Below are positions 8,469 through 63,481 of a DNA stretch of 64,000 nt, in pieces. The translations under genes were made by a program, and so were the position numbers. Each line of letters begins with the position of its first letter. Position 1 is the stretch's first letter. The notes under the pieces were generated by a model. That model had not been told where the DNA came from. It saw nothing but the letters and a program-made list of their open reading frames with translations, and made no database searches. Source of the stretch: Collimonas fungivorans. Its GTDB lineage: Bacteria; Pseudomonadota; Gammaproteobacteria; Burkholderiales; Burkholderiaceae_D. The DNA is taken from contig NZ_CP013232.1 in NCBI RefSeq assembly GCF_001584145.1, positions 3,410,001 through 3,474,000 on the forward strand. Reading direction: 5' to 3'.

Positions 8469-8512
8469 ATTCAAGTAGCAATTAAGCAGCAATCAAGCAG
8501 CAATTAAGCAGA
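8469..8512. repeat. Four 11-bp imperfect tandem repeats upstream of marR
   Basis: Consecutive units ATTCAAGTAGC, AATTAAGCAGC, AATCAAGCAGC and AATTAAGCAGA form four contiguous copies ending 15 bp before the marR start, in its 5' leader. Confidence 0.8.
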
Positions 8513-8527
8513 CAAGTTGAGAAAACC

Positions 8528-9001
8528 GTGAGTAACCGACCCCCATTATTCACTCTGGACACTTACCAGATTGAAGAAAGCATAGGCTATCTGTTGGCGC
8601 GCTCGCGTGCCATGATGATCAGAAGCTCAGACGAAGCTTTGATGCCGCACGGAATTACCCACGCGCAAGGCGCCATTCTCTTGATGTTGTCAACAGGAAA
8701 ATATTCGACGGCCGCTGACCTGGCCCGCGAGACGTATACCGATGCGGCATCCACCAAGCGCATGATCGATCGCCTGGTGGCGCGTGACCTGATCAAGCGC
8801 GAGCCATGTGCAAATGACCGGCGTTTGATGAAACTGCACCTGACTGCGAGCGGCATAGAGTTGTCGAAAGTGGTGCCGCAAGCGTTTTGCGGCGTGCTGA
8901 ACAAGCATTTTTCAGAGTTCAGCGCAGAAGAGATCGGCTTTTTGAAATCGATGCTCAGGCGGTTGCTGGAAAGCAATGCAGCACCGGAGAAAACACATTG
9001 A
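8528..9001 (+). CDS. MarR-family transcriptional regulator
   Basis: 157-aa dimeric winged-helix repressor; the winged-helix core is residues 35-110 (ITHAQGAILLML ... TKRMIDRLVARDLI ... NDRRLMKLHLTASG). The start is GTG 8528; no better ATG fits the domain. It is the first gene of an apparent operon with an outer-membrane factor, EmrA and EmrB, the layout of emrR/mprA loci where the regulator releases DNA on binding phenolic or hydrophobic drugs. The 12-bp palindrome upstream is its probable operator. Inducers unknown. Confidence 0.9.
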   Translation: MSNRPPLFTLDTYQIEESIGYLLARSRAMMIRSSDEALMPHGITHAQGAILLMLSTGKYSTAADLARETYTDAASTKRMIDRLVARDLIKREPCANDRRLMKLHLTASGIELSKVVPQAFCGVLNKHFSEFSAEEIGFLKSMLRRLLESNAAPEKTH

Positions 9002-9104
9002 CTATGCAAGATTAATTTATTCAATATTACTTTTAAACAAGCAGCTGTTCCCGGTAGTCTTCCTATCTGTGGCCGCTAAACCAATCCGTCAAATCAACAC
9101 CGAC

Positions 9105-10622
9105 ATGAACTCTCATCCATCTCCAGCCCGACGCAGCCTGCCGAAACTTGGCACCCAGCGCCTTGTGATCAGCGCCGCCGTACTATTGCTGGCGGCGTGC
9201 GCCAATTTCAGCGGCATCCACAGCACCGCCAACACCAACAATCCGGACGACTACGCCTCTGCCTCTTCCCTGCCGGGACAAGGCGGTTTATGGCCGGCCG
9301 GTTCCTGGGTCAGCACCATCGGCGGCAGCCAGCTGCAGCAGCTGGTGGATGAAGCGCTGGCGGGCAATCCTAACCTGCAAGCCGCCGCCGCCCGCATCGG
9401 CGCCGCGCGCGCCATGGTGGAGGCGGCTGGCGCCACCAGCAAGCCGCAAGTCGGCGCCAGCCTGTCGGCCACCCGCGAACGGTTTTCCGAGAACAGCATT
9501 TATCCGCCCCCGTTCGGCGGCATGTATGTGACGGATTATGAAACCGCGCTGAATTTTTCCTACGACCTGGATTTCTGGGGCAAGCACAGCGCGCAGCTGC
9601 GCTCGGCCATTTCGCAAAGCAAGGCGGCGGAAGCCGAACACTATGCGGCGCGCCTGGCGCTGACCGCCGGCATCTCGAAAGCCTGGCTGCAGCTGGGACG
9701 GCAATACTCCCAGCTGGACCTGACCAACCAGCAGCTGGTGCTGCGCGACAAGCTGGACAAGCTGACCCAGCAGCGCTTCGCCGCCGGCCTCGACACCCAG
9801 AGCGACAACCAGCAGAGCCGGCAACAAGTGGCCGGCCTGCGCGCCGAACAGGCGCAATGGCAGGAAGCGATCGCGCTGACCCGCAACCAGATCGCGGCAC
9901 TGATGGGCCAGGGCCCTGACCGCGGCTTGAAAATCGCACCGCCGGCATTGCCGGCCGACGCCACCATCGCCTTGCCCGACCAGCTGCCGCTCGGCCTGCT
10001 CGGACGACGGCCGGATGTGGTCGCCGCACGCTGGCAGGTGGAAGCCGCGCAAAGCGACATCAAGGTCGCCAAGACCGAGTTCTATCCGGATATCAACCTG
10101 ACGGCCATGGCTGGTTTTTCCAGCCTCAGCTTTTCGCAGTTCCTGAACCACAGCAGCAAGGTGGTCGGCATCGGCCCGGCAATCCACTTGCCGATCTTTG
10201 AAGGCGGCGCCCTGCGCGCCCAGCTCAAGGGCCGGGTCGCTGCCTATGACGGCGCCGTGGCGACCTATAACCAGGCGCTGAATGACGCTTTCCATGAAGT
10301 GGCGGACAGTGTGCAGTCGCTGCAGGCTGCCGAAACCCAGGACAAGAACCAGCAGGCGGCGGTAGAGGCCGCCGAACGCGGTATGAAACTGGCCGAACAG
10401 CGGCAACAGGTCGGCACCGCCAACATGCTGCAGGTAGTGAGCACGCAGATTTCCTGGCTGGCGCAGCGCAAGCTTGAACTCGACACGCGTGCGCGCCGGG
10501 CCGACCTGCGCGTCAACCTGATCAAGTCGCTGGGCGGCGGCTTTGACGCTTCGGCCGAGGGACTCAATCCGGCCGAAGCAAGTGCAAGCACCGCCAGCCC
10601 GCAAGCAAACGCCGCTAACTGA
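9105..10622 (+). CDS. Outer-membrane efflux lipoprotein, NodT/OprM family
   Basis: 505-aa TolC-like outer-membrane channel. I start it at ATG 9105, which gives a lipoprotein signal ending LLLAAC with the lipidated Cys at 32; the longer frame from 8976 would bury that signal. Two OEP repeats follow, with typical text FSYDLDFWGKHSAQLRSA and LLGRRPDVVAARWQ. It completes a tripartite pump with the EmrA- and EmrB-like genes downstream. A Ser/Ala-rich tail ends the protein 40 bp before emrA. Confidence 0.92.
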   Translation: MNSHPSPARRSLPKLGTQRLVISAAVLLLAACANFSGIHSTANTNNPDDYASASSLPGQGGLWPAGSWVSTIGGSQLQQLVDEALAGNPNLQAAAARIGAARAMVEAAGATSKPQVGASLSATRERFSENSIYPPPFGGMYVTDYETALNFSYDLDFWGKHSAQLRSAISQSKAAEAEHYAARLALTAGISKAWLQLGRQYSQLDLTNQQLVLRDKLDKLTQQRFAAGLDTQSDNQQSRQQVAGLRAEQAQWQEAIALTRNQIAALMGQGPDRGLKIAPPALPADATIALPDQLPLGLLGRRPDVVAARWQVEAAQSDIKVAKTEFYPDINLTAMAGFSSLSFSQFLNHSSKVVGIGPAIHLPIFEGGALRAQLKGRVAAYDGAVATYNQALNDAFHEVADSVQSLQAAETQDKNQQAAVEAAERGMKLAEQRQQVGTANMLQVVSTQISWLAQRKLELDTRARRADLRVNLIKSLGGGFDASAEGLNPAEASASTASPQANAAN

Positions 10623-18360: not shown

Positions 18361-19761
18361 TCAATCGCCGCCGTACGGCGCGTCCAGATTACCGACATAG
18401 TTGTCGAATTTCGTGTATTGCCCGAGGAAGCTGAGACGCACGCTGCCGATCGGACCGTTACGCTGTTTGCCAATAATGATTTCGGCGGTGCCCTTTTCCT
18501 GGGAATCAGGGTTGTACACCTCGTCACGGTAAATGAACAGGATGACGTCGGCATCCTGTTCGATAGCGCCGGATTCGCGCAAGTCGGACATCACCGGGCG
18601 CTTGTTGGGACGCTGCTCCAGCGAGCGGTTCAGCTGCGACAATGCAATCACCGGGCACTGCAGCTCTTTGGCCAGGCCCTTCAGGTTACGCGAGATTTCG
18701 GAAATTTCGGTAGCGCGGTTTTCACCGGCATTATTGGCCGACATCAGCTGCAAATAGTCGATGATGATCAGGCCCAGCGTGCCGCACTGGCGCGACAGCC
18801 GGCGCGCGCGGGCGCGCAGTTCGATCGAGCTGAGCGCCGGCGTTTCGTCGATGAACAGCTGGGCGTCGTTCATCTTCTGGATCGCATGGGTCAGGCGCGG
18901 CCAGTCCTCATCATTGAGGCGGCCGGTACGCAAACGGTGCTGGTCCAGCTTGCCGACCGAACCCAGCATACGCATGGCGAGCTGGGTGCCGCCCATTTCC
19001 ATCGAAAAGATCGCCACCGGCAAGCCGCTTTCGATCGCCACGTTCTCGCCGATGTTGACCGAGAATGCGGTCTTACCCATGGATGGGCGTCCCGCCACGA
19101 TGACCAGGTCGCCTTTTTGCAAGCCGGAGGTCATCTTGTCGAGGTCGATGAAGCCGGTTGAAACGCCAGTGATATCGCTCTGGTTATCGCGGTTGTAAAG
19201 TTCGTCGATGCGCTCCACTACCTGGGTCAGCAGCGGCTGGATTTCCTGGAAGCCCTGGGCGCCGCGGGCGCCCTCTTCGGCAATCGCGAAAATCTTCGAT
19301 TCCGCCTCGTCCAGCATCTGCTTGACTTCCTTGCCTTGCGGGCTGAAAGCCTGGCCGGAAATTTCATCGGCGACGGTAATCAGCTTACGCAAGACGCCGC
19401 GATCGCGCACGATCTCGGCATAGCGGCGAATGTTGGCCGCCGATGGCGTATTTTGCGCCAGCGCGTTGAGGTAGCTCAGGCCGCCGACCTCTTCCGCCTT
19501 GCCGGTGCCGCTCAGCGATTCATAGACCGTGATCACGTCAGCCGGCTTGCTGCCGTTGATCAGCTTGACCATATGCTGGAAGATGATGCGATGATCGTAG
19601 CGGTAGAAATCGTCGGCGCTGACGAAGTCCGCGATCTTGTCCCACGCCGCATTATCCAGCAGCAATCCGCCTAAAACGGACTGTTCTGCTTCGATAGAAT
19701 GGGGTGGTACGCGGAGGGAGTCTAACTGCGGATCGGACGGTGCTTTAGAAGGTGCTTTCAT
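18361..19761 (-). CDS. dnaB: Replicative DNA helicase DnaB
   Basis: 466-aa hexameric helicase that unwinds DNA at the replication fork. It has an N-terminal helical domain (residues 20-125), linker, and RecA-like C-terminal ATPase with Walker A GRPSMGKT at 224-231 and the IIIDYLQLM Walker B region. Length is normal, with no intein. It lies downstream of the rpsF-rplI cluster, separated by a terminator and so probably with its own promoter in 19762-19821. Confidence 0.97.
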   Translation of the reverse strand: MKAPSKAPSDPQLDSLRVPPHSIEAEQSVLGGLLLDNAAWDKIADFVSADDFYRYDHRIIFQHMVKLINGSKPADVITVYESLSGTGKAEEVGGLSYLNALAQNTPSAANIRRYAEIVRDRGVLRKLITVADEISGQAFSPQGKEVKQMLDEAESKIFAIAEEGARGAQGFQEIQPLLTQVVERIDELYNRDNQSDITGVSTGFIDLDKMTSGLQKGDLVIVAGRPSMGKTAFSVNIGENVAIESGLPVAIFSMEMGGTQLAMRMLGSVGKLDQHRLRTGRLNDEDWPRLTHAIQKMNDAQLFIDETPALSSIELRARARRLSRQCGTLGLIIIDYLQLMSANNAGENRATEISEISRNLKGLAKELQCPVIALSQLNRSLEQRPNKRPVMSDLRESGAIEQDADVILFIYRDEVYNPDSQEKGTAEIIIGKQRNGPIGSVRLSFLGQYTKFDNYVGNLDAPYGGD

Positions 19762-19820
19762 GGCGCGAATTATACCTGCTTCTTATAAGCGTCTTGCTGC
19801 ACTGCCAGAAAAAGGGCGTA

Positions 19821-19848
19821 AAAAAAGCCGGGAAAACCCGGCTTTTTT
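19821..19848 (-). terminator. Terminator after rplI
   Basis: GCCGGG, loop AAAA, CCCGGC, flanked by A and T runs on both sides. It closes the rpsF-priB-rpsR-rplI operon on the minus strand. Confidence 0.88.
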
Positions 19849-19877
19849 ACTGCAATGATTTTTTTGCCAACAACGTA

Positions 19878-22420: not shown

Positions 22421-22532
22421 TAAATGTGGCGAAATCGTCCCGAGACAAGGAACAAAGCACACAAGACTGGAGCCTTGCGCACATTTGTGACGCTGCATCG
22501 GGGCGGTTTCGCCACATGTTTCGCCACATTTA
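22421..22532. repeat. Short inverted-repeat element touching the trmJ stop codon
   Basis: Outer arms TAAATGTGGCGAAA (22421-22434) and TTTCGCCACATTTA (22519-22532) are perfect. Inner arms (22425-22443 and 22498-22516) match at 17 of 19 positions. The right end holds two direct copies of TTTCGCCACAT spaced 12 bp. The right border overlaps the TAA of trmJ (22530-22532). This looks like a MITE or the fused ends of a deleted IS; no coding capacity. Confidence 0.65.
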
Positions 22533-48317: not shown

Positions 48318-48355
48318 AATATTGACCAGTAAGGATGGCAATCTAAGTGAGTTCG

Positions 48356-50274: not shown

Positions 50275-50440
50275 GAGTAGCGATATCCGATGAAGAATAA
50301 GAAGCGGCGGCGGGAATTGCAAAGCCAGACCGCGCTCGACCTGGAGATATTTCGCGTGGGGACTGGTGATTCAACAATATTAACGGCGCAGGCAGCCTAT
50401 TCCCCGAACAACTGCCCCGCCCGCAACAACTGAAACTTGC

Positions 50441-50472
50441 GATCCGGACTTGAGTTACCTCAAATCCGGATC
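50441..50472 (-). other. Intercistronic hairpin between pstS and pstC
   Basis: GATCCGGACTTGAG (50441-50454) and CTCAAATCCGGATC (50459-50472) pair over 14 bp with one mismatch and a TTAC loop, 11 bp past the pstS stop. It has no T tract. Such stems after pstS usually protect or attenuate the mRNA, raising PstS over the membrane subunits (inference). Confidence 0.65.
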
Positions 50473-50483
50473 AGGTACGACTA

Positions 50484-51527: not shown

Positions 51528-51573
51528 TTGTTACTCCCTTGTTGACTATAGATGTGGTGTGCCCAAGTCGAGA

Positions 51574-51619
51574 CTGTTGTGAAATTCATCTCCTTGCAAG
51601 GAAGCCAATTTCACAACAG
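51574..51619 (-). other. Hairpin in the pstS leader
   Basis: CTGTTGTGAAATT (51574-51586) and AATTTCACAACAG (51607-51619) are perfect 13-bp arms. The 20-nt loop itself contains the palindrome TCCTTGCAAGGA (51591-51602). It lies between the Pho box and the start codon, so it should be transcribed. Confidence 0.7.
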
Positions 51620-51649
51620 CCCCTAAGACAGGGCGAACTCTAACCAACA

Positions 51650-51671
51650 TTTATGACAGCTTTATGACGAG
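51650..51671 (-). promoter_or_regulatory. pstS: Pho box upstream of pstS
   Basis: On the minus strand two 11-bp PhoB repeats read TCGTCATAAAG and CTGTCATAAAT, close to the CTGTCATA-based consensus. A TAGAGT -10-like element follows at about the right distance (51638-51643). The 356-bp pstS-ppk gap otherwise holds the leader hairpin and A-rich tracts near 51700-51735. Confidence 0.85.
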
Positions 51672-51828
51672 GTAAAAATCAATGCAAATAACATTAAATT
51701 GTCAAAAAAATCACAAAAAAAACAACCAAAAAAACCTGTCGGGTTCTAATATTCATATCATCCAGGCGTCGAACGATGCGGCTTCGCAATGCCAAACGTA
51801 TTGCCGCGCTTCCATTTTCTTCATCAAG

Positions 51829-51850
51829 CTGTCATATTCAATGCATACAC
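51829..51850 (+). promoter_or_regulatory. ppk: Possible degenerate Pho box upstream of ppk
   Basis: CTGTCATATTC followed by AATGCATACAC on the plus strand: the first repeat is a perfect CTGTCATA, the second is weak. 33 bp before the ppk start. Confidence 0.35.
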
Positions 51851-51883
51851 TGCGCCGTAACCATCAGACCAGCTGCCTGATTC

Positions 51884-54028
51884 ATGAATAAAAAAACCAA
51901 GCCGGACGAGGATTCGAAACATCCCGGCGCCAGATTAGGCGCCAACCCAAGCTATCTGAATCGCGAATTGTCGCAACTGGCCTTCAACCGGCGCGTCATG
52001 GCCCAGGCCGAGGACCGCCATGTGCCGTTGCTGGAACGATTGCGGTATCTGTGCATCGTCAGCAATAACCTCGACGAATTCTTTGAAGTCCGCATCGCCA
52101 GCTTGCTGGCAAACAGCCAGGTTGAGGGAGGCGGCGCCGAGTCGCCGGCCTTGGCTGCGGCGCTTGAGCGCACCAGCGTAGAGTGTCACCAGATCGTCGA
52201 CCGCCAGTACGCCATCCTCAACCAGACCATCCTGCCGCAACTGTCGGCCAACCGCATCCACCTGCTGCGGCACGGCGACCGCAACGAAGAGCAGCGAGCG
52301 TGGGTAAAAACTTTCTTTGAACAGGAAATCCGCCCCCTGCTGACTCCCATTGGGCTGGATCCGGCCCATCCGTTTCCCCAGGTATTAAACAAAAGCCTCA
52401 ATTTCATTGTCGAAATGGCAGGCAAGGATGCGTTCGGGCGCAGCACCTCGATTGCCATCATCAAAGCGCCGCGCGTATTGCCGCGTGTGATCAAGCTGCC
52501 GGATGTGCTGTCGCCCGGCGGCGCCTCGTTTTGCCTGCTGTCATCCATCATCCATGCCCACATTGGCGACCTGTTTGCCGGTCGCCAGATATTGGCATAC
52601 TCACAATTCCGGGTGACTCGCAACAGCGACCTGTGGGTCGACGAAGAAGAGGTCAAGAACCTGCGCCAGGCGCTGCAAAGCGAGCTGCAGAGCCGCCAGT
52701 TCGGAGTTGCCGTCAGGCTGGAGGTGGCGCGCAGCTGCCCACCGCAACTGTCCCAGTTCCTGCTCGACCAGTTCGGCATTGCTGCCAACCGCTTGTACGC
52801 GGTCGACGGCCCGGTCAACATGGTGCGCCTGTCAGAGATGATCGACCAGATCAGCGACGCCAGCTTGCGTTTCCCGCCGTTCGCGCCGGGCTTGCCGCTG
52901 CACCTGGAGAACGCTAGCGATATTTTCGAACAATTGCGGCAAAAGGACGTGCTGCTGCACCATCCGTTCCAGTCGTTCCAGCCGGTAGTCGATTTTGTCC
53001 GCTCCGCGGCGTTCGACAGCAATGTGGTGGCGATCAAGCAGACCATTTACCGCACCGGCATGAATTCCGACCTGATGGAAGCGCTGATCGTCGCCGCGCA
53101 ACGCGGCAAAGAAGTGATGGTGATCGTTGAGCTGATGGCGCGCTTCGACGAGGAAGCCAACATCAACTGGGCCGACAAGCTGGAACGCGCTGGCGCCCAA
53201 GTGGTATATGGCGTGGTCGGCCTCAAGACCCATGCCAAGCTGTCGCTGGTGATCCGGCGCGAAGCCGACAAGAGCGGCAACGGCGAACTGCGTTATTACG
53301 CCCACCTCGGCACCGGCAACTACCATCCGACCACCACCAAGCTTTACACCGATTTCGGCCTGCTCACCTCGAACCAGAAGCTGGCCACCGAAGTCAACGA
53401 AGTCTTCATACACCTGGCCAGCCTGACCAAGCCGAAGAAAATGGATTATCTGTGGATGGCGCCGTTCCTGCTGCAGAAGGAAATCATCCGCGCCATCCAC
53501 AATGAAGCAGAGATCGCCCGCAAGGGCCGGCCGGCGCGCATCGTCGCCAAGATGAATGCGCTGCTGGACGAATCCGTGATCCGCGCCCTCTACGAAGCCT
53601 CTGCCGACGGCGTCAAGATCGAACTGATCGTGCGCGGCGCCTGCGCGCTCAGGCCAGGCGTTCCGGGGCTGTCGGAGAATATCCACGTACGCTCGATCAT
53701 CGGCCGCTTCCTGGAACATAGCCGTATTTATTATTTCCGCAACAACCTGCAGCACGATGTCTACCTGGCCAGCGCCGACTGGATGAACCGCAACCTGTTC
53801 CGGCGGGTCGAGGTGGCCTTCCCGGTGCTCGACAAATCGCTCAAGAGAAGAGTCATCAACGAAGGCCTCACGCCTTACCTTAAAGACAACACCAATGCCT
53901 GGAGCCTCGGCTCCGATGGCAATTGGCATAAAAACAAGCCTCATCGGAGACAAAAACCATACGGCGCGCAACGACACTTGATGCTGGCTTTAGGTGCGCT
54001 TTCCCCTACGCATTACACAAGTAAGTGA
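51884..54028 (+). CDS. ppk: Polyphosphate kinase 1
   Basis: 714-aa membrane-associated enzyme polymerising the ATP gamma-phosphate into polyphosphate. N domain YLNRELSQLAFNRRVMAQAE, head domain, and two PLD-like C domains with the autophosphorylated His about 450 (GLKTHAKLSLVIRRE) and a second His about 612 (EHSRIYYF). Divergent from pstS, so Pi limitation may control both. Followed within 25 bp by sixA. ppx, which often neighbours ppk, is not in the window. Confidence 0.96.
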   Translation: MNKKTKPDEDSKHPGARLGANPSYLNRELSQLAFNRRVMAQAEDRHVPLLERLRYLCIVSNNLDEFFEVRIASLLANSQVEGGGAESPALAAALERTSVECHQIVDRQYAILNQTILPQLSANRIHLLRHGDRNEEQRAWVKTFFEQEIRPLLTPIGLDPAHPFPQVLNKSLNFIVEMAGKDAFGRSTSIAIIKAPRVLPRVIKLPDVLSPGGASFCLLSSIIHAHIGDLFAGRQILAYSQFRVTRNSDLWVDEEEVKNLRQALQSELQSRQFGVAVRLEVARSCPPQLSQFLLDQFGIAANRLYAVDGPVNMVRLSEMIDQISDASLRFPPFAPGLPLHLENASDIFEQLRQKDVLLHHPFQSFQPVVDFVRSAAFDSNVVAIKQTIYRTGMNSDLMEALIVAAQRGKEVMVIVELMARFDEEANINWADKLERAGAQVVYGVVGLKTHAKLSLVIRREADKSGNGELRYYAHLGTGNYHPTTTKLYTDFGLLTSNQKLATEVNEVFIHLASLTKPKKMDYLWMAPFLLQKEIIRAIHNEAEIARKGRPARIVAKMNALLDESVIRALYEASADGVKIELIVRGACALRPGVPGLSENIHVRSIIGRFLEHSRIYYFRNNLQHDVYLASADWMNRNLFRRVEVAFPVLDKSLKRRVINEGLTPYLKDNTNAWSLGSDGNWHKNKPHRRQKPYGAQRHLMLALGALSPTHYTSK

Positions 54029-54041
54029 GCAAACAAGTGAG
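54018..54041. repeat. Two 12-bp tandem repeats across the ppk stop
   Basis: CAAGTAAGTGAG and CAAACAAGTGAG are contiguous. The ppk TGA (54026-54028) lies in the first, and a fading third unit CAAGGGCAAATC carries the sixA ribosome-binding site. Confidence 0.7.
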
Positions 54042-54053
54042 CAAGGGCAAATC

Positions 54054-54512
54054 ATGGATTTGATTCTATGGCGGCACGCGGAAGCAGAAATCGGCGAACC
54101 GGACGAGGGCCGCGCCCTCACCGGCAAGGGCCATAAACAAGCCTGGAAAATGGCCGACTGGCTGGACCACAACCTGCCGCACAGTTGCAAGATCATCAGC
54201 AGTCCGGCCACCCGTACGGTGCAAACGGCGGAAGCGCTGGGCCGCAAATTCAAGACCCATCCGGACCTCGCCCCCGACTGCAGCGCCGAACAGTTGCTGG
54301 CGGTGGCCAACTGGCCCAACAATCGCGAACCGGTGCTGATCATCGGCCACCAGCCGACGCTGGGCCAGGCCGCCGCCTTGCTGGTGGCCGGCCAGATGCA
54401 GGAATGGTCTATCAGGAAAGGCAGCGTCTGGTGGATTGCCCAGCGCGAACGCGGCGACATCACTACTAACTATCTGAAAGCCGTCATGTCGCCGGATCTG
54501 ATCGCCAAGTAG
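54054..54512 (+). CDS. sixA: Phosphohistidine phosphatase SixA
   Basis: 152-aa histidine-phosphatase superfamily protein that removes phosphate from phosphohistidine, for example on HPt domains or the nitrogen PTS. Start ATG 54054 with AAGGG upstream; the frame reaches back into ppk but without homology. Catalytic RHAEAE (His 8), ITSSPATRTVQTAE-like helix and HQPTLG near residue 100. Coupled behind ppk. Confidence 0.92.
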   Translation: MDLILWRHAEAEIGEPDEGRALTGKGHKQAWKMADWLDHNLPHSCKIISSPATRTVQTAEALGRKFKTHPDLAPDCSAEQLLAVANWPNNREPVLIIGHQPTLGQAAALLVAGQMQEWSIRKGSVWWIAQRERGDITTNYLKAVMSPDLIAK

Positions 54513-54702
54513 AAATCAGGCTGAAAACCTCGGTACCTCGGAGCGGTAAGTGGTATATTTGCGACCAAATCGTTTATCCTATTTTTCTACCGTTGTTGTC
54601 AAACTACAGGAATTTTGCGGCATTTCCTTGCATAAGATAAAATGGCAATTAAGTTGCATTATAAGCAACCCCTGTTGTAGTGGACCACCCGAGAGGTAAC
54701 GC

Positions 54703-55938
54703 ATGCTCTATCAATTTCACGAATTCAACCGCTCCCTGCTCCATCCCCTGGTGCAATGGGCCGATGCCGGCAGCAGACTCTTCACCGACCCGATATCGCC
54801 GCTGTCCCACACGCCATTTGCACAACGCATCGCCGCCGGCTACGAATTGATGTACCGCCTCGGCAAACAATATGAAAAGCCAGAGTTCGAAATCGACAGC
54901 ACGCTGGTCAACGACAAAACGGTCGCGATCATCGAAGAAGTAGCGACTACCAAGCCGTTCTGCCGCCTGCTGCATTTCAGGAAAGACCTGAGCGCCAAGG
55001 AACTGGGCGCGCTCAAGCAACCCACCGTGCTGCTGGTCGCTCCCCTGTCGGGCCATCATTCGACCCTGCTGCGCGATACCGTGCGCGGCCTGCTGCCCGA
55101 ACACGACGTCTACATCACCGACTGGACCGACGCCCGCATGGTGCCCGCCAGCGACGGCGCCTTCCATTTGCACGACTATATCTATTACGTACAGGATTTC
55201 ATCCGCCAGCTGGGACCGGACCTGCACGTGATCTCGGTCTGCCAGCCGACCGTTCCTGTACTGGCAGCAATTTCACTGATGGCCAGCGCCAAGGACAGGC
55301 ACCTGCCGAAGAGCATGACCATGATGGGCGGCCCGATCGATCCGCGCGAATCGCCGACCGACGTCAACAACCTGGCCACCGAAAAGCCGTTCAGCTGGTT
55401 CGAGAACACCGTGATCTATAGCGTGCCTTCCAACTACCCCGGTTTCGGCCGCAAGGTATATCCTGGCTTCCTGCAACATGCCGGTTTCGTCGCCATGAAT
55501 CCGAGCCGCCATGCCCAGAGTCACTGGGATTTCTACATGCACCTGCGCGAAGGCGACAACGAGTCGGCCGACAGCCACCGCAAGTTCTATAACGAGTACA
55601 ACGCGGTGCTGGACATGCCGGCCGAGTACTACCTGGAAACCATCAAGACCGTGTTCCAGGATTTCTCCCTGCCGCACGGCACCTGGGAAGTCGAAGGCAA
55701 GCTGGTGCGGCCGCAGGATATCAAGAGCGTTGCACTGTTTACCATCGAAGGCGAACTCGACGACATTTCCGGCCCGGGACAAACCCAGGCCGCGCATGGC
55801 CTGTGCAGCTCCATCCCGAAAAGCAAAAAACAGCATTTCACCGCCGAGAAATGCGGCCATTACGGGATTTTCTCAGGCCGCCGCTGGCGCGAGCTGATTT
55901 GCCCGAAGATAACCGCCTTTATCAAGGACAACGCTTAA
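54703..55938 (+). CDS. phaZ: Intracellular polyhydroxybutyrate depolymerase PhaZ
   Basis: 411-aa enzyme that mobilises stored PHB granules. It matches the Ralstonia PhaZ1 type: no signal peptide, N-terminal MLYQFHEFNRSLLHPL, and the unusual nucleophile Cys 180 in SVCQPTVPV in place of the lipase Ser. The Asp and His of the triad lie in the C-terminal half (LDDISG and KCGHYGIFSG). Shows that this strain stores PHB. Terminator follows. Confidence 0.93.
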   Translation: MLYQFHEFNRSLLHPLVQWADAGSRLFTDPISPLSHTPFAQRIAAGYELMYRLGKQYEKPEFEIDSTLVNDKTVAIIEEVATTKPFCRLLHFRKDLSAKELGALKQPTVLLVAPLSGHHSTLLRDTVRGLLPEHDVYITDWTDARMVPASDGAFHLHDYIYYVQDFIRQLGPDLHVISVCQPTVPVLAAISLMASAKDRHLPKSMTMMGGPIDPRESPTDVNNLATEKPFSWFENTVIYSVPSNYPGFGRKVYPGFLQHAGFVAMNPSRHAQSHWDFYMHLREGDNESADSHRKFYNEYNAVLDMPAEYYLETIKTVFQDFSLPHGTWEVEGKLVRPQDIKSVALFTIEGELDDISGPGQTQAAHGLCSSIPKSKKQHFTAEKCGHYGIFSGRRWRELICPKITAFIKDNA

Positions 55939-55940
55939 TT

Positions 55941-55964
55941 AAGTAAATAAGTAAATAAGTAAGC
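55941..55964. repeat. Three 8-bp tandem repeats after the phaZ stop
   Basis: AAGTAAAT, AAGTAAAT and AAGTAAGC are contiguous, 2 bp after the phaZ stop. They place stop codons in all three forward frames. Confidence 0.8.
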
Positions 55965-55992
55965 AACGTCAGCCCGGCAAATCCGCTGCCAG

Positions 55993-56022
55993 AGCCGTTC
56001 CCTCGCCGGGAACGGCTTTTTT
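55993..56022 (+). terminator. Terminator after phaZ
   Basis: AGCCGTTCCC / GGGAACGGCT stem with a 5-nt loop, followed by TTTTTT. Confidence 0.9.
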
Positions 56023-56046
56023 CATTTGGCGCGGCCCCGGTATAAT

Positions 56047-56775
56047 ATGCTGTTGTCATCACCAAGCTCCCTGCCGCCCGTGTCCTCACCTTCCCTTGCC
56101 GACCATATCGAAGCGCTGCTGCCGCAGACGCAATGCACCAAGTGTGGCTACCCGGCTTGCCGCCCTTATGCCGAAGCCATCGCCGACGGCAGCGCCAGCT
56201 ACAACCAGTGTCCGCCGGGCGGGCAGCAAGGGGTGGCGCGGCTGGCGCTGTTACTGCAGCAGCCGGTCATCCCGCTCAATCCTGCCAACGGCGCCGAACG
56301 GCCGCGGCCGCTGGCGGTCATCGATGAAGCGGCCTGCATCGGCTGCACGTTGTGCATCCAGGCTTGTCCAGTCGACGCCATCACCGGCGCCGCCAAGCAG
56401 ATGCACACGGTGATCAACGACCTGTGCACCGGCTGCGACCTGTGCGTAGCGCCTTGCCCGGTCGATTGCATCACCATGGTCGACGTCAGCGGCACGGACA
56501 CCGGCTGGGATGCATGGCCCCAGCAGCAGGCCGATGCAGCACGTGCCCGCCACGATTTTCGTGCGTTCAGGCTGGCGCGCGAAAAAAGTGAAAACGACGA
56601 ACGCCTGGCCGCCAAGGCCGCGGAAAAACTCAAGGCGGTTGCGGCCGAATCGGCGGCGACGCCTGAACAGCAAGCAGAACAGCAGCGCAAGAAAGCCATC
56701 ATCCAGGCCGCCATCGAACGGGCCCGGCTGAAGAAAGAACAACAAGCCGAACAGGCTGCCAAGGACTCGCCATGA
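56047..56775 (+). CDS. rnfB: RnfB-like electron-transport ferredoxin
   Basis: About 242-aa iron-sulfur protein. It has a 4Fe-4S domain with the C-x2-C-x4-C...C pattern ([16 protein letters not shown] ... NQCPPGG) and two classic ferredoxin clusters ([24 protein letters not shown]), then a charged Lys/Glu/Gln-rich coiled-coil tail. It lacks the N-terminal membrane helix of complete RnfB, and no rnfACDGE genes are nearby. Start is uncertain: ATG 56047 overlaps a TATAAT at 56041-56046, and GTG 56080 is another option. It overlaps nth by 4 bp. Confidence 0.85.
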
Positions 56776-57422
56776 ATGCCGAAAAACGCAGGGAAATATT
56801 CACCCGCCTGCGCGCCGCCCTGCCGCACCCGACCACCGAACTGGAATACACCACGCCGTTTGAATTGCTGATCTCGGTGATCCTGTCGGCGCAAGCCACG
56901 GATGTCTCGGTCAACAAGGCTACGCGCAAACTGTATCCGGTCGCCAATACGCCGGCGCAGATCCATGCGCTCGGCGTCGACGGCCTGATTCCGTATATCC
57001 AGACCATAGGCTTGTATCGCACCAAGGCCAAGAATGTGATCGAAACCTGCCGCATGCTGGTGGCCTTGCATGACGGCCAGGTGCCGCGCACCCGCGAACA
57101 GCTGGAGGCGCTGCCCGGGGTCGGCCGCAAGACTGCCAACGTGGTGCTGAATACCGCTTTCGGGGTGCCGACGATTGCGGTCGACACCCATATCTTCCGG
57201 GTCTCCAACCGCACCGGCATCGCCCCAGGCAAGGACGTCGAGGCGGTCGAGCACAAGCTGATGAAGCTGGTGCCCGCCGAGTTCCTGCTGGACGCCCATC
57301 ACTGGCTGATCCTGCATGGCCGCTATACCTGCATTGCCCGCAAGCCGCTATGCTGGAACTGCAGCATCGCCGACCTCTGCGATTTCAAGGCGAAAACGCC
57401 GTTGCCGGAAAAAGGGGTATAA
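56772..57422 (+). CDS. nth: Endonuclease III
   Basis: 216-aa DNA glycosylase/AP lyase for oxidised pyrimidines. HhH motif [11 protein letters not shown] with catalytic Lys 120, Asp 138 in [11 protein letters not shown], and the 4Fe-4S cluster Cys 187, 194, 197 and 203 (C-x6-C-x2-C-x5-C). The ATG overlaps the rnfB stop (ATGA), echoing the rnf/rsx-nth linkage of gammaproteobacteria. Confidence 0.97.
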
Positions 57423-57426
57423 ATCC

Positions 57427-58125
57427 ATGCAGCACTCCCATCCGCATACCGAACACCATTTCGAAGCCAGCGACACCGTGCGCGATATCGTCATCGGCAT
57501 GGCCGACGGCCTGACGGTGCCGTTTGCGCTGGCGGCCGGCATCAGCGGCGCGGCAGTCGGCATCGATATCGTGGTCACCGCCGGCGTCGCGGAAATCGCC
57601 GCCGGTTCGATCGCCATGGGCCTGGGCGGCTACCTGGCCGGCCGCACCCAGCGCCAGCACTATTACGCCGAGCGCGAACGCGAAGAACAGGAAATCCTCA
57701 ACGTGCCGCATCGCGAGCGCAAGGAAGTGATCGACATCATGGCGCAATACGGGGTGACGAAACAGGAGTGCGAACCGATGCTGGCCGGGCTGGAACGCAA
57801 TCCGGTCGCCTGGCGCGACTTCATGATGCGCTTTGAACTCGGCCTGGAAGAACCGCGGCCGGCCGCGGCCAGGAAAAGCGCGGTCACCATCGCCTTGTCT
57901 TACCTGGTCGGCGGCCTGATCCCGCTCGCCCCCTACATGCTGATGACATCCATCCCGCGCGCCCTGGCAGCCTCCACCGTGGTCACGCTGCTGGCGCTGT
58001 TTGTCTTCGGCTACCTGAAAGGCAGCGTCACCGGCACCGGCGCCTTCAAATCGGCATTGCAAACCCTGATGGTCGGCGGCCTCGCCGCGGCCGTCGCTTT
58101 CGGCATCGCCAGACTGATCAGTTAA
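57427..58125 (+). CDS. VIT1/CCC1-family transporter
   Basis: 232-aa inner-membrane protein of the vacuolar iron transporter fold. Start ATG 57427 (MQHSHPHTEHHFEASDTVRD) follows nth by 5 bp; the His-rich N-terminus could touch metal. Helices at about residues 27-48, 53-75, 150-172, 175-195 and 208-230; the cytoplasmic loop (70-140) is charged. Homologues export Fe2+/Mn2+. In operon with rnfB-nth. Confidence 0.88.
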   Translation: MQHSHPHTEHHFEASDTVRDIVIGMADGLTVPFALAAGISGAAVGIDIVVTAGVAEIAAGSIAMGLGGYLAGRTQRQHYYAEREREEQEILNVPHRERKEVIDIMAQYGVTKQECEPMLAGLERNPVAWRDFMMRFELGLEEPRPAAARKSAVTIALSYLVGGLIPLAPYMLMTSIPRALAASTVVTLLALFVFGYLKGSVTGTGAFKSALQTLMVGGLAAAVAFGIARLIS

Positions 58126-58130
58126 CCATC

Positions 58131-58556
58131 ATGTTCAATCCATCCCAAGACGACGTGCGGCGTTTTTTTTGCGAAACCTACCGCAAGCATCGCGCCGGCG
58201 AAATCCTCACGCCGCTGGAAGCCATTGCCAGCGACTGGCTGGCTCAGCATCCCGAGTATGACAACGACCTGAAAGACGTCGAGGCTGCGCTGGCGGCGGA
58301 TTACTCGGTCGAGAACGGCCAGACCAATCCTTTCCTGCACTTGTCCATGCACCTGTCGATCGCCGAACAGATCTCGATCGACCAGCCGCCCGGCATACGC
58401 GCCGCCGCCAACGCCCTGACGCAACGCCTGCAATCGGAGCATGAAGCCCATCATCACATCATGGAATGCCTGGGCGAGATGATCTGGAATTCGCAACGCA
58501 GCGGCTTGCCGCCGGATGGCGCCGCCTATATCGACTGCGTCAGAAAGCGCGTTTAA
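58131..58556 (+). CDS. DUF1841 family protein
   Basis: 141-aa cytoplasmic helical protein. Hallmarks: MFNPSQDDVRRFFCETYRKH, PFLHLSMHLSIAEQISIDQPPG and EHEAHHHIMECLGEMIW. His-rich segments suggest metal binding but no activity is known. It starts 5 bp after the VIT1-like gene, so the two are co-transcribed. Common in betaproteobacteria. Confidence 0.88.
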   Translation: MFNPSQDDVRRFFCETYRKHRAGEILTPLEAIASDWLAQHPEYDNDLKDVEAALAADYSVENGQTNPFLHLSMHLSIAEQISIDQPPGIRAAANALTQRLQSEHEAHHHIMECLGEMIWNSQRSGLPPDGAAYIDCVRKRV

Positions 58557-58569
58557 CGCTGCCCAGGCT

Positions 58570-58600
58570 GTAAAAAAAACGCCTGGATTTTATCCAGGCG
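58570..58600 (-). terminator. Terminator of the czc operon
   Basis: CGCCTGGAT, loop TTT, ATCCAGGCG. On the minus strand it is followed by a T8 run, downstream of czcA. Confidence 0.85.
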
Positions 58601-58644
58601 CAAACCCAAGGAGACGTTGGGCAGGGAACTTCAGTGCAGCAAAC

Positions 58645-61600
58645 TCAATGCTGGACGGCAGCTTCTTCGCCGGCCTTTCCTTCTTCATCTTCGTCACGGC
58701 GATGGAACAGCTGATACAGGATCGGCAGCACCAGCAAGGTCAGGATGGTTGAGGACAGGATTCCTCCGATCACCACCGTCGCCAGCGGCCGCTGCACTTC
58801 CGCCCCGGTGCCGGTAGCAATCGCCATCGGCACAAACCCCAGGGAAGCCACCAGCGCCGTCATCAGCACCGGCCGCAAGCGGGTCAAGGCACCTTCGCGG
58901 ATCGCCGCCTCCAGCCCGCGTCCTTCTTCACGCAGGCTACGGATAAAGGCGATCATCACCAGCCCGTTCAGCACTGCCACCCCGCACAAGGCAATGAAAC
59001 CGACAGCCGCCGAAATCGACAAGGGAATCCCGCGCAGCCACAAGGCGACGATGCCGCCGGTCAAGGCAAACGGGATGCCGCTGAACACCAGCAAGCCATC
59101 CTTGATATTGCCAAACATCGCAAACAGCAGCGTGAAGACCAGCAGCAAGGCTACCGGGATCACGATCTGCAGGCGCTGGCTGGCCGATTGCAGCTGTTCG
59201 AACTGGCCGCCCCAGCTGGTCCAGTAACCAGACGGGATCTTGACCTGCTGCTGCAGCTTGGCCTCTGCCTCGGCCACAAACGAACCGATGTCCCGGCCGC
59301 GCACATTGGCGCTCACAACGATCCGCCGCTTGCCGTTTTCGCGGCTGATCTGGTTCGGCCCCGGCGCCAGTTCCAGGCTGGCTACCTCGCTCAACGGAAT
59401 ATAGTTGGTGCGCCCTTCTGCACCGGCGCCGGCATTGCGCGGCAGGGAAATCGGCAGCCGCCGGAACGCCTCAAGGTCGCTGCGCAGCTCCTCCGGCAGA
59501 CGCACCACGATATCGAAACGGCGGTCGCCCTGGAACAAGGTGCCGGCTTCCTTGCCGCCTATCGCGGTAGCCACCACATCCTGCACATCGGCTACATTGA
59601 GGCCGTAGCGTGCGGTCTTGTCGCGATCGATATTCACCGTCAGCATGGGCAGGCCCGAGGTCTGTTCGACCTTCACTTCGGCGGCGCCGGTGATCTTGCC
59701 CAGCACGGTCGAAACCTTGTCGGCGGTATCGTTCAGGACCGCCATGTCGTCGCCGAATATCTTGACGGCGATGTCGCTGCGCACTCCGGAAATCAGCTCA
59801 TTGAAACGCAACTGTATCGGTTGCGAAAACTCGTAGTTGTTGCCAGGGATCTTGTTGGCGGTATCCTGGATAGCCGCCAGCAGCTCAGGCCGCGATTTCT
59901 TCGGCTTGGGCCAGTCGGCTTCCGGCTTGAGCATGATGTAGCCGTCGGAGATATTCGGCGGCATCGGATCGGAGGCGATTTCCGCGGTTCCGGTACGGGC
60001 GAACACGCGCTCTATCTCGGGAAACTGCCGCTTCAATGTGCTCTCGATCTGTTTTTGCATCTCCAGCGATTGCGTCAGGCTGGTGCCGGGGATGCGCAGC
60101 GCCTGGATTGCCATGTCGCCCTCGTTCAGGCTCGGCACGAACTCGCTGCCAAGCCGGGTCGCCAGCAGGCCGGACAACAGCAGCACAAGCAGAGCGCCGC
60201 CCAGCACCGCAGCTTTACGCTGCATCACCCATTCCAGCACCGGTGCGTAGAAGCGCTTGGCGCCGCGCATCAGGAAATTCTCGGTTTCCGCTACCCGCTT
60301 GCCGATGAACAGCGCCACCGCCGCCGGGATAAAGGTAATCGACAGGATCATCGCACCGACCAGGGCAATCACCACCGTCAGGGCCATCGGGTTGAACATT
60401 TTTCCTTCGACGCCGGTCAGCGCGAAGATCGGCAGGTAAACCACCATGATGATGACCTGGCCGAACAGCAAGGGGCGGCGTGCCTCCTTGGAAGCGGCGA
60501 ATACTTCATGGAAGCGTTCGCTGCGTGTCAGCGGCCGGCCGTGGTGCGCCTGCGCATGGGCCAGGCGCCGCACACAGTTTTCGACAATCACCACCGCGCC
60601 ATCGATGATGATGCCGAAATCGAGCGCGCCCAGGCTGAGCAGGTTGGCGCTCACCTTGTACTGGACCATGCCGGTGAAGGTAAACAGCATGGATAGCGGG
60701 ATCACCATCGCGGTAATGATCGCGGCCCGTATGTTCCCAAGGAACATGAACAGGATGGCGATCACCAGGATGGCGCCCTCCAGCAGGTTCTTCTTGACGG
60801 TATTGATCGCCTTATCCACCAGCACGGTACGATCGTAGACCGTGACCGCCTCGACCCCGGGCGGCAAGCTGCGGTTGATTTCCACCATCTTGCGGTCGAC
60901 CGCCTGCGATACGGCGCGGCTGTTTTCGCCGATCAGCATGAATACCGTGCCCAGCACCACCTCGCGGCCGTTTTCGGTAGCCGCGCCGGTGCGCAATTCG
61001 CGGCCGATGCCGACTTCGCCGATATCGCGGATACTGATCGGCACGCCCTGCACATTGCCCAGGATGATGTTGCGCATGTCTTCTATCGACTGCACCTGGC
61101 CCGGCGCCCGGATCAGCAGCTGCTCGCCGCGTTTTTCGATATAACCGGCGCCGACATTGCTGTTGTTGCGGTCAAGCGCTGTGACGATATCCTGCAGGGT
61201 CAGGCCGTAGGACGCCAACTTCTCCGGCACCGGCGCCACCTGGTATTCCTTGGCGAAACCGCCGATCGAATTGATTTCCGTGACGCCGCTCACATTGCGC
61301 AGCTGCGGCTTGATGATCCAGTCCTGGATTTCCCGCAGGTCGGTGGCTGTGTAGGCGCTGCCATTCGCTTTTTTGGCGCCGTCCCTGGCCTCCACGGTCC
61401 ACAGGTAAATCTCGCCCAGGCCGCTGGAAATCGGCCCCATCGCCGGCGTTACGCCGGCCGGAAGCTTGCCCCTCGCCTCCTGGATCCGTTCGTTCACCAT
61501 CTGCCGCGCAAAATAGATATCGGTGCCATCCTTGAATATCACCGTCACCTGCGACAAGCCGTAGCGCGACAGCGAACGCGTCTGCTGCAGGTGCGGCAAA

Positions 61601-61824
61601 CCGGACATCACCGTTTCTATCGGAAAAGTCACGCGCTGTTCGGTCTCCAGCGGCGAATAGCCGGGTGCGGAGGTATTGATCTGGACCTGGACATTGGTAA
61701 TATCCGGCACTGCGTCGATCGGCAGCTTCTGATAGTTGTAAATGCCGAGCGCGGCCATCGCAAACACGGCCAGCATGACCAGCCAGCGCTGCTCGATGGC
61801 GAAACGTATGATACGTTCAAACAT
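58645..61824 (-). CDS. czcA: Heavy-metal RND efflux pump, CzcA/CusA family (HME)
   Basis: 1059-aa inner-membrane proton-driven pump with two sets of six helices and large periplasmic domains. The TM4 segment LDFGIIIDGAVVIVENCVRR is of the divalent-cation type (CzcA/CnrA-like, Co-Zn-Cd-Ni) rather than the Cu/Ag CusA type. N-terminus FERIIRFAIEQRWLVML is typical. Last gene of czcC-B-A on the minus strand. The exact metal is not decided by sequence reading. Confidence 0.93.
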   Translation of the reverse strand: MFERIIRFAIEQRWLVMLAVFAMAALGIYNYQKLPIDAVPDITNVQVQINTSAPGYSPLETEQRVTFPIETVMSGLPHLQQTRSLSRYGLSQVTVIFKDGTDIYFARQMVNERIQEARGKLPAGVTPAMGPISSGLGEIYLWTVEARDGAKKANGSAYTATDLREIQDWIIKPQLRNVSGVTEINSIGGFAKEYQVAPVPEKLASYGLTLQDIVTALDRNNSNVGAGYIEKRGEQLLIRAPGQVQSIEDMRNIILGNVQGVPISIRDIGEVGIGRELRTGAATENGREVVLGTVFMLIGENSRAVSQAVDRKMVEINRSLPPGVEAVTVYDRTVLVDKAINTVKKNLLEGAILVIAILFMFLGNIRAAIITAMVIPLSMLFTFTGMVQYKVSANLLSLGALDFGIIIDGAVVIVENCVRRLAHAQAHHGRPLTRSERFHEVFAASKEARRPLLFGQVIIMVVYLPIFALTGVEGKMFNPMALTVVIALVGAMILSITFIPAAVALFIGKRVAETENFLMRGAKRFYAPVLEWVMQRKAAVLGGALLVLLLSGLLATRLGSEFVPSLNEGDMAIQALRIPGTSLTQSLEMQKQIESTLKRQFPEIERVFARTGTAEIASDPMPPNISDGYIMLKPEADWPKPKKSRPELLAAIQDTANKIPGNNYEFSQPIQLRFNELISGVRSDIAVKIFGDDMAVLNDTADKVSTVLGKITGAAEVKVEQTSGLPMLTVNIDRDKTARYGLNVADVQDVVATAIGGKEAGTLFQGDRRFDIVVRLPEELRSDLEAFRRLPISLPRNAGAGAEGRTNYIPLSEVASLELAPGPNQISRENGKRRIVVSANVRGRDIGSFVAEAEAKLQQQVKIPSGYWTSWGGQFEQLQSASQRLQIVIPVALLLVFTLLFAMFGNIKDGLLVFSGIPFALTGGIVALWLRGIPLSISAAVGFIALCGVAVLNGLVMIAFIRSLREEGRGLEAAIREGALTRLRPVLMTALVASLGFVPMAIATGTGAEVQRPLATVVIGGILSSTILTLLVLPILYQLFHRRDEDEEGKAGEEAAVQH

Positions 61825-61845
61825 GGGATCGGATCCTTTGCTGCA

Positions 61846-63426
61846 TCAGTGGGCGTGCTCGGCGCTGCTCTTGCCGAGTTCCGATTTGAGAATGAAACTG
61901 CCGTCAGCCGCATAGCGCGCGCCCGGCTTGAGTCCCTTGACGATCTCCACGTGCTGGCTGTCAGCGCGGCCGATGCTCACCGGCTGCACCATGAAACCGT
62001 CGGCGATGCGGACAAACACTACCTGCTTGTCGTCCACGCTCTGTATCGCCTGCGGCTGCACCGCCACCGCTACTTCGGCATCGCTGGAAACCACCTCGAC
62101 ATTAACAAACAAGCCCGGCCGCCAGGCCATGTCCGGATTAGCCAAGGTGACACGCGCCTTGGCGGTGCGGGTCTGTTCGCCAAGCAAGGCGCCGACATAG
62201 GAAATGCTGCCGCTGGCCTTCGACTCGAAGGCGGTGGCGCTGATCTTGACCTTTTCGCCCAGCCGCACCAGGTTCAGGTCCTTGGCCGGCACGATGATCT
62301 CGGCCCACACGGTCGACAGGTCGGAGATCGTGAAAATGCTGGCGTTGGCCGCCACCGCCTCGCCCAGCGCGATGTGTTTCTCCGTCACCAGGCCATTGAA
62401 CGGGGCCCGGATTTCATAACGGTTCAAGGCCCCAGGATTGCCGGCGCCGACGCCGGTGCCCAGCACATTGAGTTTCTGGCGCGCATTCTGCAGGGCGATT
62501 TCAGCCTCGCTCATGACTTGCCGTGCTTGCTGGTAATCCTGTTCCGCGGATATCTTTTCTTCCCACAGCTTTTTTTCGCGCTCATAGGTAGTGCGCGCAA
62601 ACGTGAAGCGCTTCTGCGCCGCCAGCAATTCGCTACGCTGCTCCGCCAGGCCGGTGCTGGCAATCACCGCCAGCAGCTGCCCCTTCTTCACCTGCTGGCC
62701 GAGGCTGACCGCGACCTGCTCTACCACCCCTTCCAGGCGCGGCACCACGTGGGCGGTCTTGTCTTCGTTAAAGCGAATTTCTCCCGGCAAGGTGACTGAA
62801 GTCTTCACCTTGGCGGGACCGGCGTTTTCAAGTTTGACGCCGCTGGCGGCGACCTGGGCCTGGTCCAGTTCGATCTTGCCTTCTTCCTGAGCAAATCCGG
62901 CTTGCATGGACTGGTTGCCATATTGCAGCTGTAGCTTGGCGTCGAATACGTGCGGTTCAGCTATCGGCAGAGCGCTTTTGAGGAAATCCTTTTCCGGCGC
63001 GAAGCCGATTTTCTGGACTTCGCCATCCGGCCTGGTCAGCACCAGCCCCAGCCTGGCTGCATCCGGCGCCAGCGGTTTACCGTCATTGAACAGCCAGACC
63101 TGCAGGCGCGCTTCACCCGCTGCTTCGAGCATCTTCACTTCCAGCGCCAGCTTGTCCTTGGCGTACATTTTTCCGCCGTGCGGACCAGTGCTTGCCACCG
63201 GGTGGTGTTCGCCGTCCGCATGCTGGCTGTCGTGGCCGTGTTTCTCGGATGACTTTTCACCATGGTGTTCGGTATCGGCGTGCGCGGCGGCTTCCCGGTG
63301 CGTGCGCTCTTCCGGCTTATCGCCACCATTGCTGCCCGCACTCAAGTACATGCCCGCGGCGACCAGCGCGACAATCGTCGCTATGCCGGCCGCGATAGCT
63401 TTGCTTTTGCTTAAATTGATTTTCAT
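61846..63426 (-). CDS. czcB: Heavy-metal efflux membrane-fusion protein, CzcB family
   Basis: 526-aa periplasmic adaptor with an N-terminal membrane anchor (residues 10-30), then a His-rich stretch (about 40-88; HADTEHHGEKSSEKHGHDS) likely to bind metal, a CzcB-specific N domain, barrel-sandwich hybrid (GQQVKKGQLLAVI) and alpha hairpin. It precedes czcA by 21 bp. Works with CzcA and the outer-membrane channel upstream. Confidence 0.92.
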   Translation of the reverse strand: MKINLSKSKAIAAGIATIVALVAAGMYLSAGSNGGDKPEERTHREAAAHADTEHHGEKSSEKHGHDSQHADGEHHPVASTGPHGGKMYAKDKLALEVKMLEAAGEARLQVWLFNDGKPLAPDAARLGLVLTRPDGEVQKIGFAPEKDFLKSALPIAEPHVFDAKLQLQYGNQSMQAGFAQEEGKIELDQAQVAASGVKLENAGPAKVKTSVTLPGEIRFNEDKTAHVVPRLEGVVEQVAVSLGQQVKKGQLLAVIASTGLAEQRSELLAAQKRFTFARTTYEREKKLWEEKISAEQDYQQARQVMSEAEIALQNARQKLNVLGTGVGAGNPGALNRYEIRAPFNGLVTEKHIALGEAVAANASIFTISDLSTVWAEIIVPAKDLNLVRLGEKVKISATAFESKASGSISYVGALLGEQTRTAKARVTLANPDMAWRPGLFVNVEVVSSDAEVAVAVQPQAIQSVDDKQVVFVRIADGFMVQPVSIGRADSQHVEIVKGLKPGARYAADGSFILKSELGKSSAEHAH

Positions 63427-63433
63427 GTTGGCT

Positions 63434-63481
63434 GCTTCATAAGCTGATTGATAGGCTGGTTAATAAGCTAACCGCGAAGCT
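63434..63481. repeat. Four 12-bp imperfect tandem repeats across the czcC stop
   Basis: Units GCTTCATAAGCT, GATTGATAGGCT, GGTTAATAAGCT and AACCGCGAAGCT are contiguous and share the ending A(A/G)GCT. The czcC stop codon (63460-63462) lies inside the third unit, so the last protein residues are repeat-coded. Confidence 0.75.

Follow-up and report, generated by a model that had tools for sequence, protein, structure and literature searches.

Short tandem duplications in the intergenic gaps of Collimonas fungivorans and their relation to gene ends

Introduction

The subject of this study is a set of short head-to-tail repeats, here called arrays, in the gaps between the genes of a stretch of 64,000 nucleotides from Collimonas fungivorans (the window; positions 3,410,001 to 3,474,000 of a 5.6-Mb single-contig genome). 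A preliminary description of the window had listed nine such repeat loci at gene boundaries and attributed them to a process seated at gene ends or to selection on helical phase. We searched the window, other stretches of the same genome, Collimonas relatives and other Oxalobacteraceae for such arrays and consider it probable (roughly 0.8) that they arise recurrently as tandem duplications of about 9–16 bp, are largely neutral and are filtered by selection, and thus belong to a known kind of feature.

Pfam matches of ten proteins support the names MarR, FtsH, CarA small chain, HbpS/GlcG-like, PhoR, PPK and PHB depolymerase, and include a response regulator with a Trans_reg_C domain and a patatin. 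The name czcC is a prediction; a HlyD/CusB-type protein, identified by its Pfam match, flanks the czcC array on one side. Among the 80 loci kept, the best match to the PPK of the window comes from Collimonas sp. OK607, with 92% identity. In a search for known RNA elements, nothing but two tRNAs attained the Rfam gathering score in the window, and a scan of positions 44,001–64,000 yielded 5 promoter-like matches (6.1 by chance) and 29 terminator-like matches (19.4 by chance).

Results

Arrays were searched with Tandem Repeats Finder (TRF) at periods of 7–16, and intergenic arrays were counted at a score of at least 44 or at least 40. Since a pair of exact copies with period p scores 4p, the shortest periods in the TRF lists are partly set by the score floor. 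Genes were called with our own codon-model script; in the one E. coli stretch that served as a check, 47 stops and 42 starts out of 48 each were placed correctly. Gaps of at least 600 bp were left out of most counts because some of them conceal missed genes; all gaps together hold 68 arrays and those below 600 bp hold 58, while counts of periods cover all gaps. The median gap measures 143 bp in the window and 126 bp in the other stretches. A long repeat with a period of 15 bp in a 1.5-kb gap of this genome (stretch L098, positions 2620–3013) is probably a missed coding region for a repetitive protein, as far as its identity can be guessed, and not intergenic.

Six of the nine loci of the preliminary description (marR, ftsH, phoR2, phoB2, phaZ and czcC) were recovered by TRF at a score of at least 40, whereas carA, GlcG and ppk went unreported even at a score of 30. 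Four further TRF arrays, at 22,506–22,529, 29,270–29,292, 32,274–32,299 and 51,703–51,735, come in addition to the earlier list (Table 1).

Table 1. Arrays in the window, with their occurrence in aligned relatives (G numbers)
Array	Position	Strand	Repeat	Location	Occurrence in relatives
marR 5'	8473–8511	+	TRF 3.5 x 11 bp, score 64	16 bp ahead of the start predicted for marR (8528)	Array in this genome alone among 6 genomes in which the gap was found
Exact duplication	22506–22529		2 x 12 bp, TRF 100%	Adjoins stop of 22530–23303(-)
12-bp array	29270–29292		TRF 1.9 x 12 bp	6 bp from stop of 29299–29997(-)	Related array in G003 and G009; none in G005, G006, G007
13-bp array	32274–32299		TRF 2.0 x 13 bp	Upstream of 31399–32250(-)	G003 has one too
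ftsH 5'	34305–34335	-	TRF 2.4 x 13 bp, score 55; third copy degenerate	34 bp upstream of the start predicted for ftsH	Extra 13-mer also in G003; one copy fewer in G009, G005, G006, G007
carA leader	41428–41449	-	2 x 11 bp, 9/11 alike; unreported by TRF at score 30	About 60 bp upstream of carA	Two copies also in G003 and G005; one copy in G009, G006, G007
GlcG/HbpS-like stop	41722–41765	-	Degenerate 11-bp units, read directly; unreported by TRF at score 30	Stop of the GlcG/HbpS-like gene
phoR2 stop	44612–44633	-	TRF 2.0 x 11 bp, exact, score 44	1 bp past stop	Identical array in G003; none in G009, G005, G006
phoB2 stop	46017–46052	-	TRF 2.8 x 13 bp, score 65	Spans stop	Different expansions here, in G003 and in G004; single in G009, G002, G013, G005
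A-rich array	51703–51735		12 bp, TRF	Between 50484–51527(-) and ppk
ppk stop	54018–54041	+	Two imperfect 12-bp units; unreported by TRF at score 30	Spans stop	12-bp insertion relative to G009, 83% like the neighbouring unit
phaZ stop	55936–55962	+	TRF 3.4 x 8 bp, score 47	First bases are the phaZ stop codon	This genome alone; absent in G003, G009, G005, G006, G007
czcC stop	63431–63469	-	TRF 3.2 x 12 bp, 77%, score 43; degenerate	In the 33 bp separating two czc-like genes	One unit fewer in G003, none in G005, more regular in G009

Intergenic arrays with a score of at least 44 are far more frequent than chance would produce. The window contains 9 of them, compared to 0.15 in dinucleotide shuffles, and enrichment over base-matched shuffles, which the preliminary description had set as a test, is evident elsewhere too, with 37 arrays compared to 1.8 in 56 other stretches of the genome (1,120 kb) and 3 compared to 0.05 in 76 kb of flanking stretches. 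In gaps below 600 bp, arrays with a score of at least 40 number 10 in 7.5 kb of the window and 40 in 102 kb elsewhere, so that the window is about threefold richer than the rest, which would predict 2.9 arrays for the window (P 0.0009, uncorrected). A regional hotspot is nevertheless unconvincing: it was its reader who chose the window, from a genome with about 88 of them, and its richness is therefore not established.

The excess is concentrated in a narrow range of sizes. In 260 kb of Collimonas gaps, with identical units counted once, 30 exact two-copy duplications of 11–16 bp were found compared to 0.0 per shuffle (five shuffles), and 15 of 8–10 bp compared to 4.8 per shuffle, whereas exact duplications of 17–80 bp were absent from these gaps. 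When units with a common 8-mer were counted only once, 25 duplications of 11–16 bp and none of at least 17 bp were left; one gap of G013 had contributed three related units. Long periods can be detected in longer gaps only, but periods of 17–40 bp would fit into most gaps. In 182 kb of gaps from other Oxalobacteraceae the excess spans 8 to 17 bp, and 3 of 27 exact duplications measure at least 17 bp. The size limit is less sharp once mismatches are admitted: with up to 12% mismatch, Collimonas yielded one duplication of 18 bp and one of 30 bp, and the other Oxalobacteraceae yielded eight of 17 to 51 bp. Exact duplications of at least 9 bp occur 3 times in 8.6 kb of gaps in the window, 16 times in 127.5 kb in the rest of the genome and 27 times in 181.9 kb in the other Oxalobacteraceae, compared to once in 36.4 kb in E. 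coli K-12 and not at all in 17.8 kb in G021, a member of the same order. These two outside genomes, the only ones sampled, differ from all others (P 0.009). The property is thus shared beyond this window and genus.

The units are mostly unlike one another, as the preliminary description had argued against a dispersed or mobile repeat family, and this part of it was supported: in this genome, 9 of 59 arrays have a unit 8-mer in common with an earlier array and 50 have none, and the pattern of the marR unit has no second site anywhere in the genome. For counts of placement, all arrays with a unit 8-mer in common with an earlier one were removed (9 from this genome, 6 from the G003 sample and 24 from ten homologous blocks), leaving 84 arrays from this genome and its Collimonas relatives.

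These 84 arrays show no attraction to gene ends beyond what short gaps impose. A gene end is no more than 2 bp away from 30 of them, compared to 30.1 under uniform placement in the same gaps, and the corresponding numbers are 39 compared to 38.0 within 10 bp and 55 compared to 52.1 within 30 bp, which speaks against a process seated at gene ends. The two kinds of ends differ, however. Stops have 26 arrays within 2 bp where 16.7 are expected (P 0.002), and starts have 4 where 14 are expected (P 0.0006). When arrays were barred from the 10 bp around starts, the count at stops became ordinary (26 compared to 23.8, P 0.28). Taken by itself, the window has 5 of its 10 arrays no more than 2 bp from a stop, where 2.0 are expected (P 0.02). 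In 79 loci of other Oxalobacteraceae, the 24 arrays left after omission of 19 related ones point in the same directions without reaching significance (stops 5 compared to 3.6, starts 1 compared to 3.0, both within 2 bp).

Coding sequences bear the mark of the reading frame: the period is a multiple of three in 40 of 49 coding arrays with a score of at least 44 but only in 21 of 52 intergenic ones. The preliminary description had suggested that it would count against a link to gene ends if arrays were equally common far from them. Within intergenic DNA this is what we found, but in gene interiors arrays are rarer per kb and mostly preserve the frame. Its proposal of a period close to one helical turn, with selection on helical phase, does not agree with the intergenic periods, which are spread across 11–15 (overall range 8 to 16), and helical phasing was therefore rejected.

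Alignment to relatives with about 95% to 83% identity to this genome, and hence a comparison at the level of species, revealed that copy number varies site by site, among others at ftsH, carA, phoB2, phaZ and czcC, and that most arrays of the window are missing from some close relatives. Such shifts at single sites fit the local duplication process that had been proposed initially, and they also separate the arrays from a mobile family. The imperfect duplication in the carA leader is genuine, as G003 has an exact 2 x 11 bp repeat there. At ftsH, relatives without the extra copy have a short repeat at unit spacing, as judged by eye from the alignment. For phoB2, 7 of 14 alignment rows were used, the minus-strand rows (G012, G007, G011, G014, G006, G010 and G008) having been left out.

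Short gaps between genes on the same strand contain arrays in more than one relative. The gap at 29,998–30,030 contains arrays in G013, G011, G014 and G006, and that at 48,318–48,355 in G013, G005 and G014. The units are mostly unrelated by eye, except that G013 resembles G006 in the former and G005 in the latter gap. The presence of different arrays in the same operon gaps indicates that these gaps lengthen by tandem duplication in separate lineages. Arrays in several relatives, often with differing sequences, were also noticed in the short same-strand gaps at 46,741–46,771, 47,480–47,528 and 63,427–63,459. The gap at 19,666–19,877 differs from the others in that its homologs in G003, G002, G007, G011 and G014 all share the same 2 x 12 bp repeat, located at position 70–93; judging by this conservation, which the other arrays lack, the repeat may be a functional leader element.

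Discussion

The excess of exact short duplications, their turnover between relatives and the frame bias in coding sequences can be accommodated by a slippage-like mechanism acting on nearly neutral DNA. In a local error of replication or repair, the new strand would re-anneal backwards and the last dozen bases would be copied again, and the resulting arrays would later expand, contract or decay through point mutation. Coding sequences would reject most duplications whose length is not a multiple of three, and the region of the start codon and the ribosome-binding site would reject many of the remaining ones, which may be why the arrays lie mostly in intergenic gaps. The tolerant edge of a gap would then be the DNA immediately past a stop codon, so that arrays appear to hug stops. 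A supposed feature of gene ends is thereby replaced by a measurable mutation spectrum.

The joins of the duplications give some insight into their origin. Among 45 two-copy duplications of at least 10 bp, 11 have an extra match of at least 3 nt at the join (6% expected by chance), and the mean extra match is 1.6 nt compared to 0.7 nt by chance (P 0.0006). This minority looks like slippage at short repeats, while no homology is needed for the others. A loss of mismatch repair was rejected as the cause, since this genome has MutS; a weakening of mismatch repair with increasing loop length, as described for prokaryotic repeats in passages of PMC4060949, could be the source of the lower size bound.

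Several observations weigh against recurrent neutral duplication as a complete account. At 25 of the 45 joins there is no extra match at all, the share expected by chance (56%), and after stricter de-duplication, which left 41 duplications, 7 of which had longer runs and were set aside, 19 of 34 have none and 9 have at least 3 nt. Slippage between pre-existing repeats can therefore explain a minority at most. Exclusion of arrays from 10 bp around starts underpredicts the number within 10 bp of any gene end (39 compared to 29.4, P 0.002) because some arrays do occur near starts. Gaps shorter than 120 bp contain 27 arrays in 32.9 effective kb and longer gaps 32 in 98.7 effective kb (P 0.0007), a surplus that uniform neutrality does not predict; perhaps regulatory DNA is the cause of the smaller number in longer gaps. 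Finally, few of the indels of 8–16 bp between species passed a strict test for tandem origin (0 of 14 between this genome and G003, 1 of 17 between this genome and G009, 2 of 17 between G003 and G009, and 1 of 10 between G005 and G006; control 0.1–1.4%), in a classification that skipped gaps below 80% identity and is blurred by divergence. The evidence for turnover therefore rests on the alignments of particular arrays.

Arrays could instead be functional and selected at gene ends as backup stop codons, as spacers that decouple translation or as termination aids. The local surplus at stops in the window would fit such a function, as would the 10 arrays in only 8.1 effective kb of same-strand gaps of 15–60 bp and the mostly unrelated arrays that different relatives bear in the operon gaps at 29,998–30,030, 47,480–47,528 and 48,318–48,355. 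We nevertheless regard this explanation as unlikely, since there is no overall excess at gene ends, exclusion from starts suffices to reproduce the surplus at stops, and most arrays of the window have no counterpart in some close relatives. Tandem backup stops in particular are contradicted by the periods of the 22 arrays that overlap a stop, which fall into all three frames (8, 7 and 7 arrays by period modulo 3). An origin as footprints of mobile elements, that is target-site duplications left after excision, or as end-joining fill-in of staggered breaks would account for the duplications, about half of the total, that have no extra match at the join, but it is improbable in view of the continuous variation in length and of arrays with up to 5.5 copies. 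Ku was not found in this genome and is present in 2 of 14 other genus members searched, which disfavors end joining as the sole source.

OmpR/PhoB-type regulators bind 11-bp direct repeats, and the PhoB/OmpR box consists of CTGTCAT-type half sites at a distance of 11 bp. The period of 11 in some arrays and the proximity of phoB/phoR and ppk could thus suggest binding sites of such regulators. The periods range from 8 to 16, however, and the Pho-box consensus matches the window 4 times compared to 3.83 by chance, in no case within an array, which makes this reading very improbable and led us to reject Pho boxes as the identity of the arrays. Two Pho-box-like matches, with 2 and 3 mismatches, lie in the gap before ppk at 51,653–51,670 and 51,818–51,835, in a window whose total of matches is not above chance.

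Tandem arrays of variable copy number are familiar in bacteria as VNTR or minisatellite loci, from which the arrays described here differ by having mostly 2–3 copies of short units at many sites per genome. The preliminary description knew of no named class into which they fit, yet short tandem or close direct repeats in intergenic DNA are already described in passages of three sources (PMC4060949, PMC4679880, PMC12699852). According to the first, two nearby copies of a 10-mer are mostly over-represented in prokaryotic intergenic regions, and some genomes have a strong excess of intergenic tandem units of 6–11 bp, while tandem repeats with longer units usually occur at normal or slightly raised frequencies; the likeness lies in close or tandem intergenic repeats, and neither a size window of 11–16 bp nor an asymmetry between stops and starts appears in its passages on these repeats (PMC4060949). 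Long simple sequence repeats, for which slippage was proposed and which have Burkholderia species among their carriers (Mrazek et al. 2007, as related in PMC4679880), likewise consist of short tandem units but are dominated by heptamers, whereas exact two-copy duplications of 11–16 bp dominate the excess here. One survey described in the same source saw no concentration of repeats near starts (PMC4679880). The TAACTGA direct repeats of Beggiatoaceae are also intergenic, tandem and in some cases overlap stops, but they represent one sequence dispersed genome-wide, in contrast to the largely unrelated units of Collimonas (as portrayed in PMC4679880). In the parts of a tree-of-life survey of short tandem repeats that bear on prokaryotes, units of 6–9 bp are enriched in some phyla though not in prokaryotes on average, and in Pseudomonadota repeats coincide with indels; that survey ends at units of 9 bp (PMC12699852). 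We found no publication on tandem repeats of Collimonas, judged by title, and regard the narrow size window of 11–16 bp as a mildly new aspect. Intergenic microduplications are frequent enough here to be usable as markers of strains and to remodel the gaps within operons, and their upper size limit offers a handle on which polymerase or repair step makes the duplications.

A candidate for this step is the error-prone polymerase DnaE2/ImuB, which might drive a size-bounded process in Oxalobacteraceae (about 9–17 bp, half or more of the events without microhomology). We consider this unlikely as it stands, and the link to DnaE2, although suggestive, is a lead rather than a result. DnaE2 is present in this genome, has no match in the E. 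coli control and has only matches below the cut-off in G015 and G021. Gaps totaling 316 kb from genomes with DnaE2 hold 33 exact duplications of at least 11 bp, and 93 kb of gaps from genomes where the search did not find it hold 1 (P 0.002), but the contrast within the family is weaker (15 in 140 kb compared to 1 in 39 kb, P 0.11), so that lineage could explain the association. This comparison omitted the ten homologous blocks and, of the 79 loci, L183 and L204, for which no status was available; partial matches in four genomes were taken as presence of DnaE2, and of the ten loci of the family that lack it, half are metagenome bins. Contrary to the idea, the TRF counts of G015, which is without DnaE2, are not low (6 arrays with a score of at least 40 in 15.6 kb), and L170, a metagenome bin in which DnaE2 was not detected, has an exact duplication of 11 bp. 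G014 has two full-length DnaE2-type matches above the family cut-off, on C77 (81,919–85,044) and C58 (38,329–41,451), while DnaE2 is single in the other 13 Collimonas genomes bearing it.

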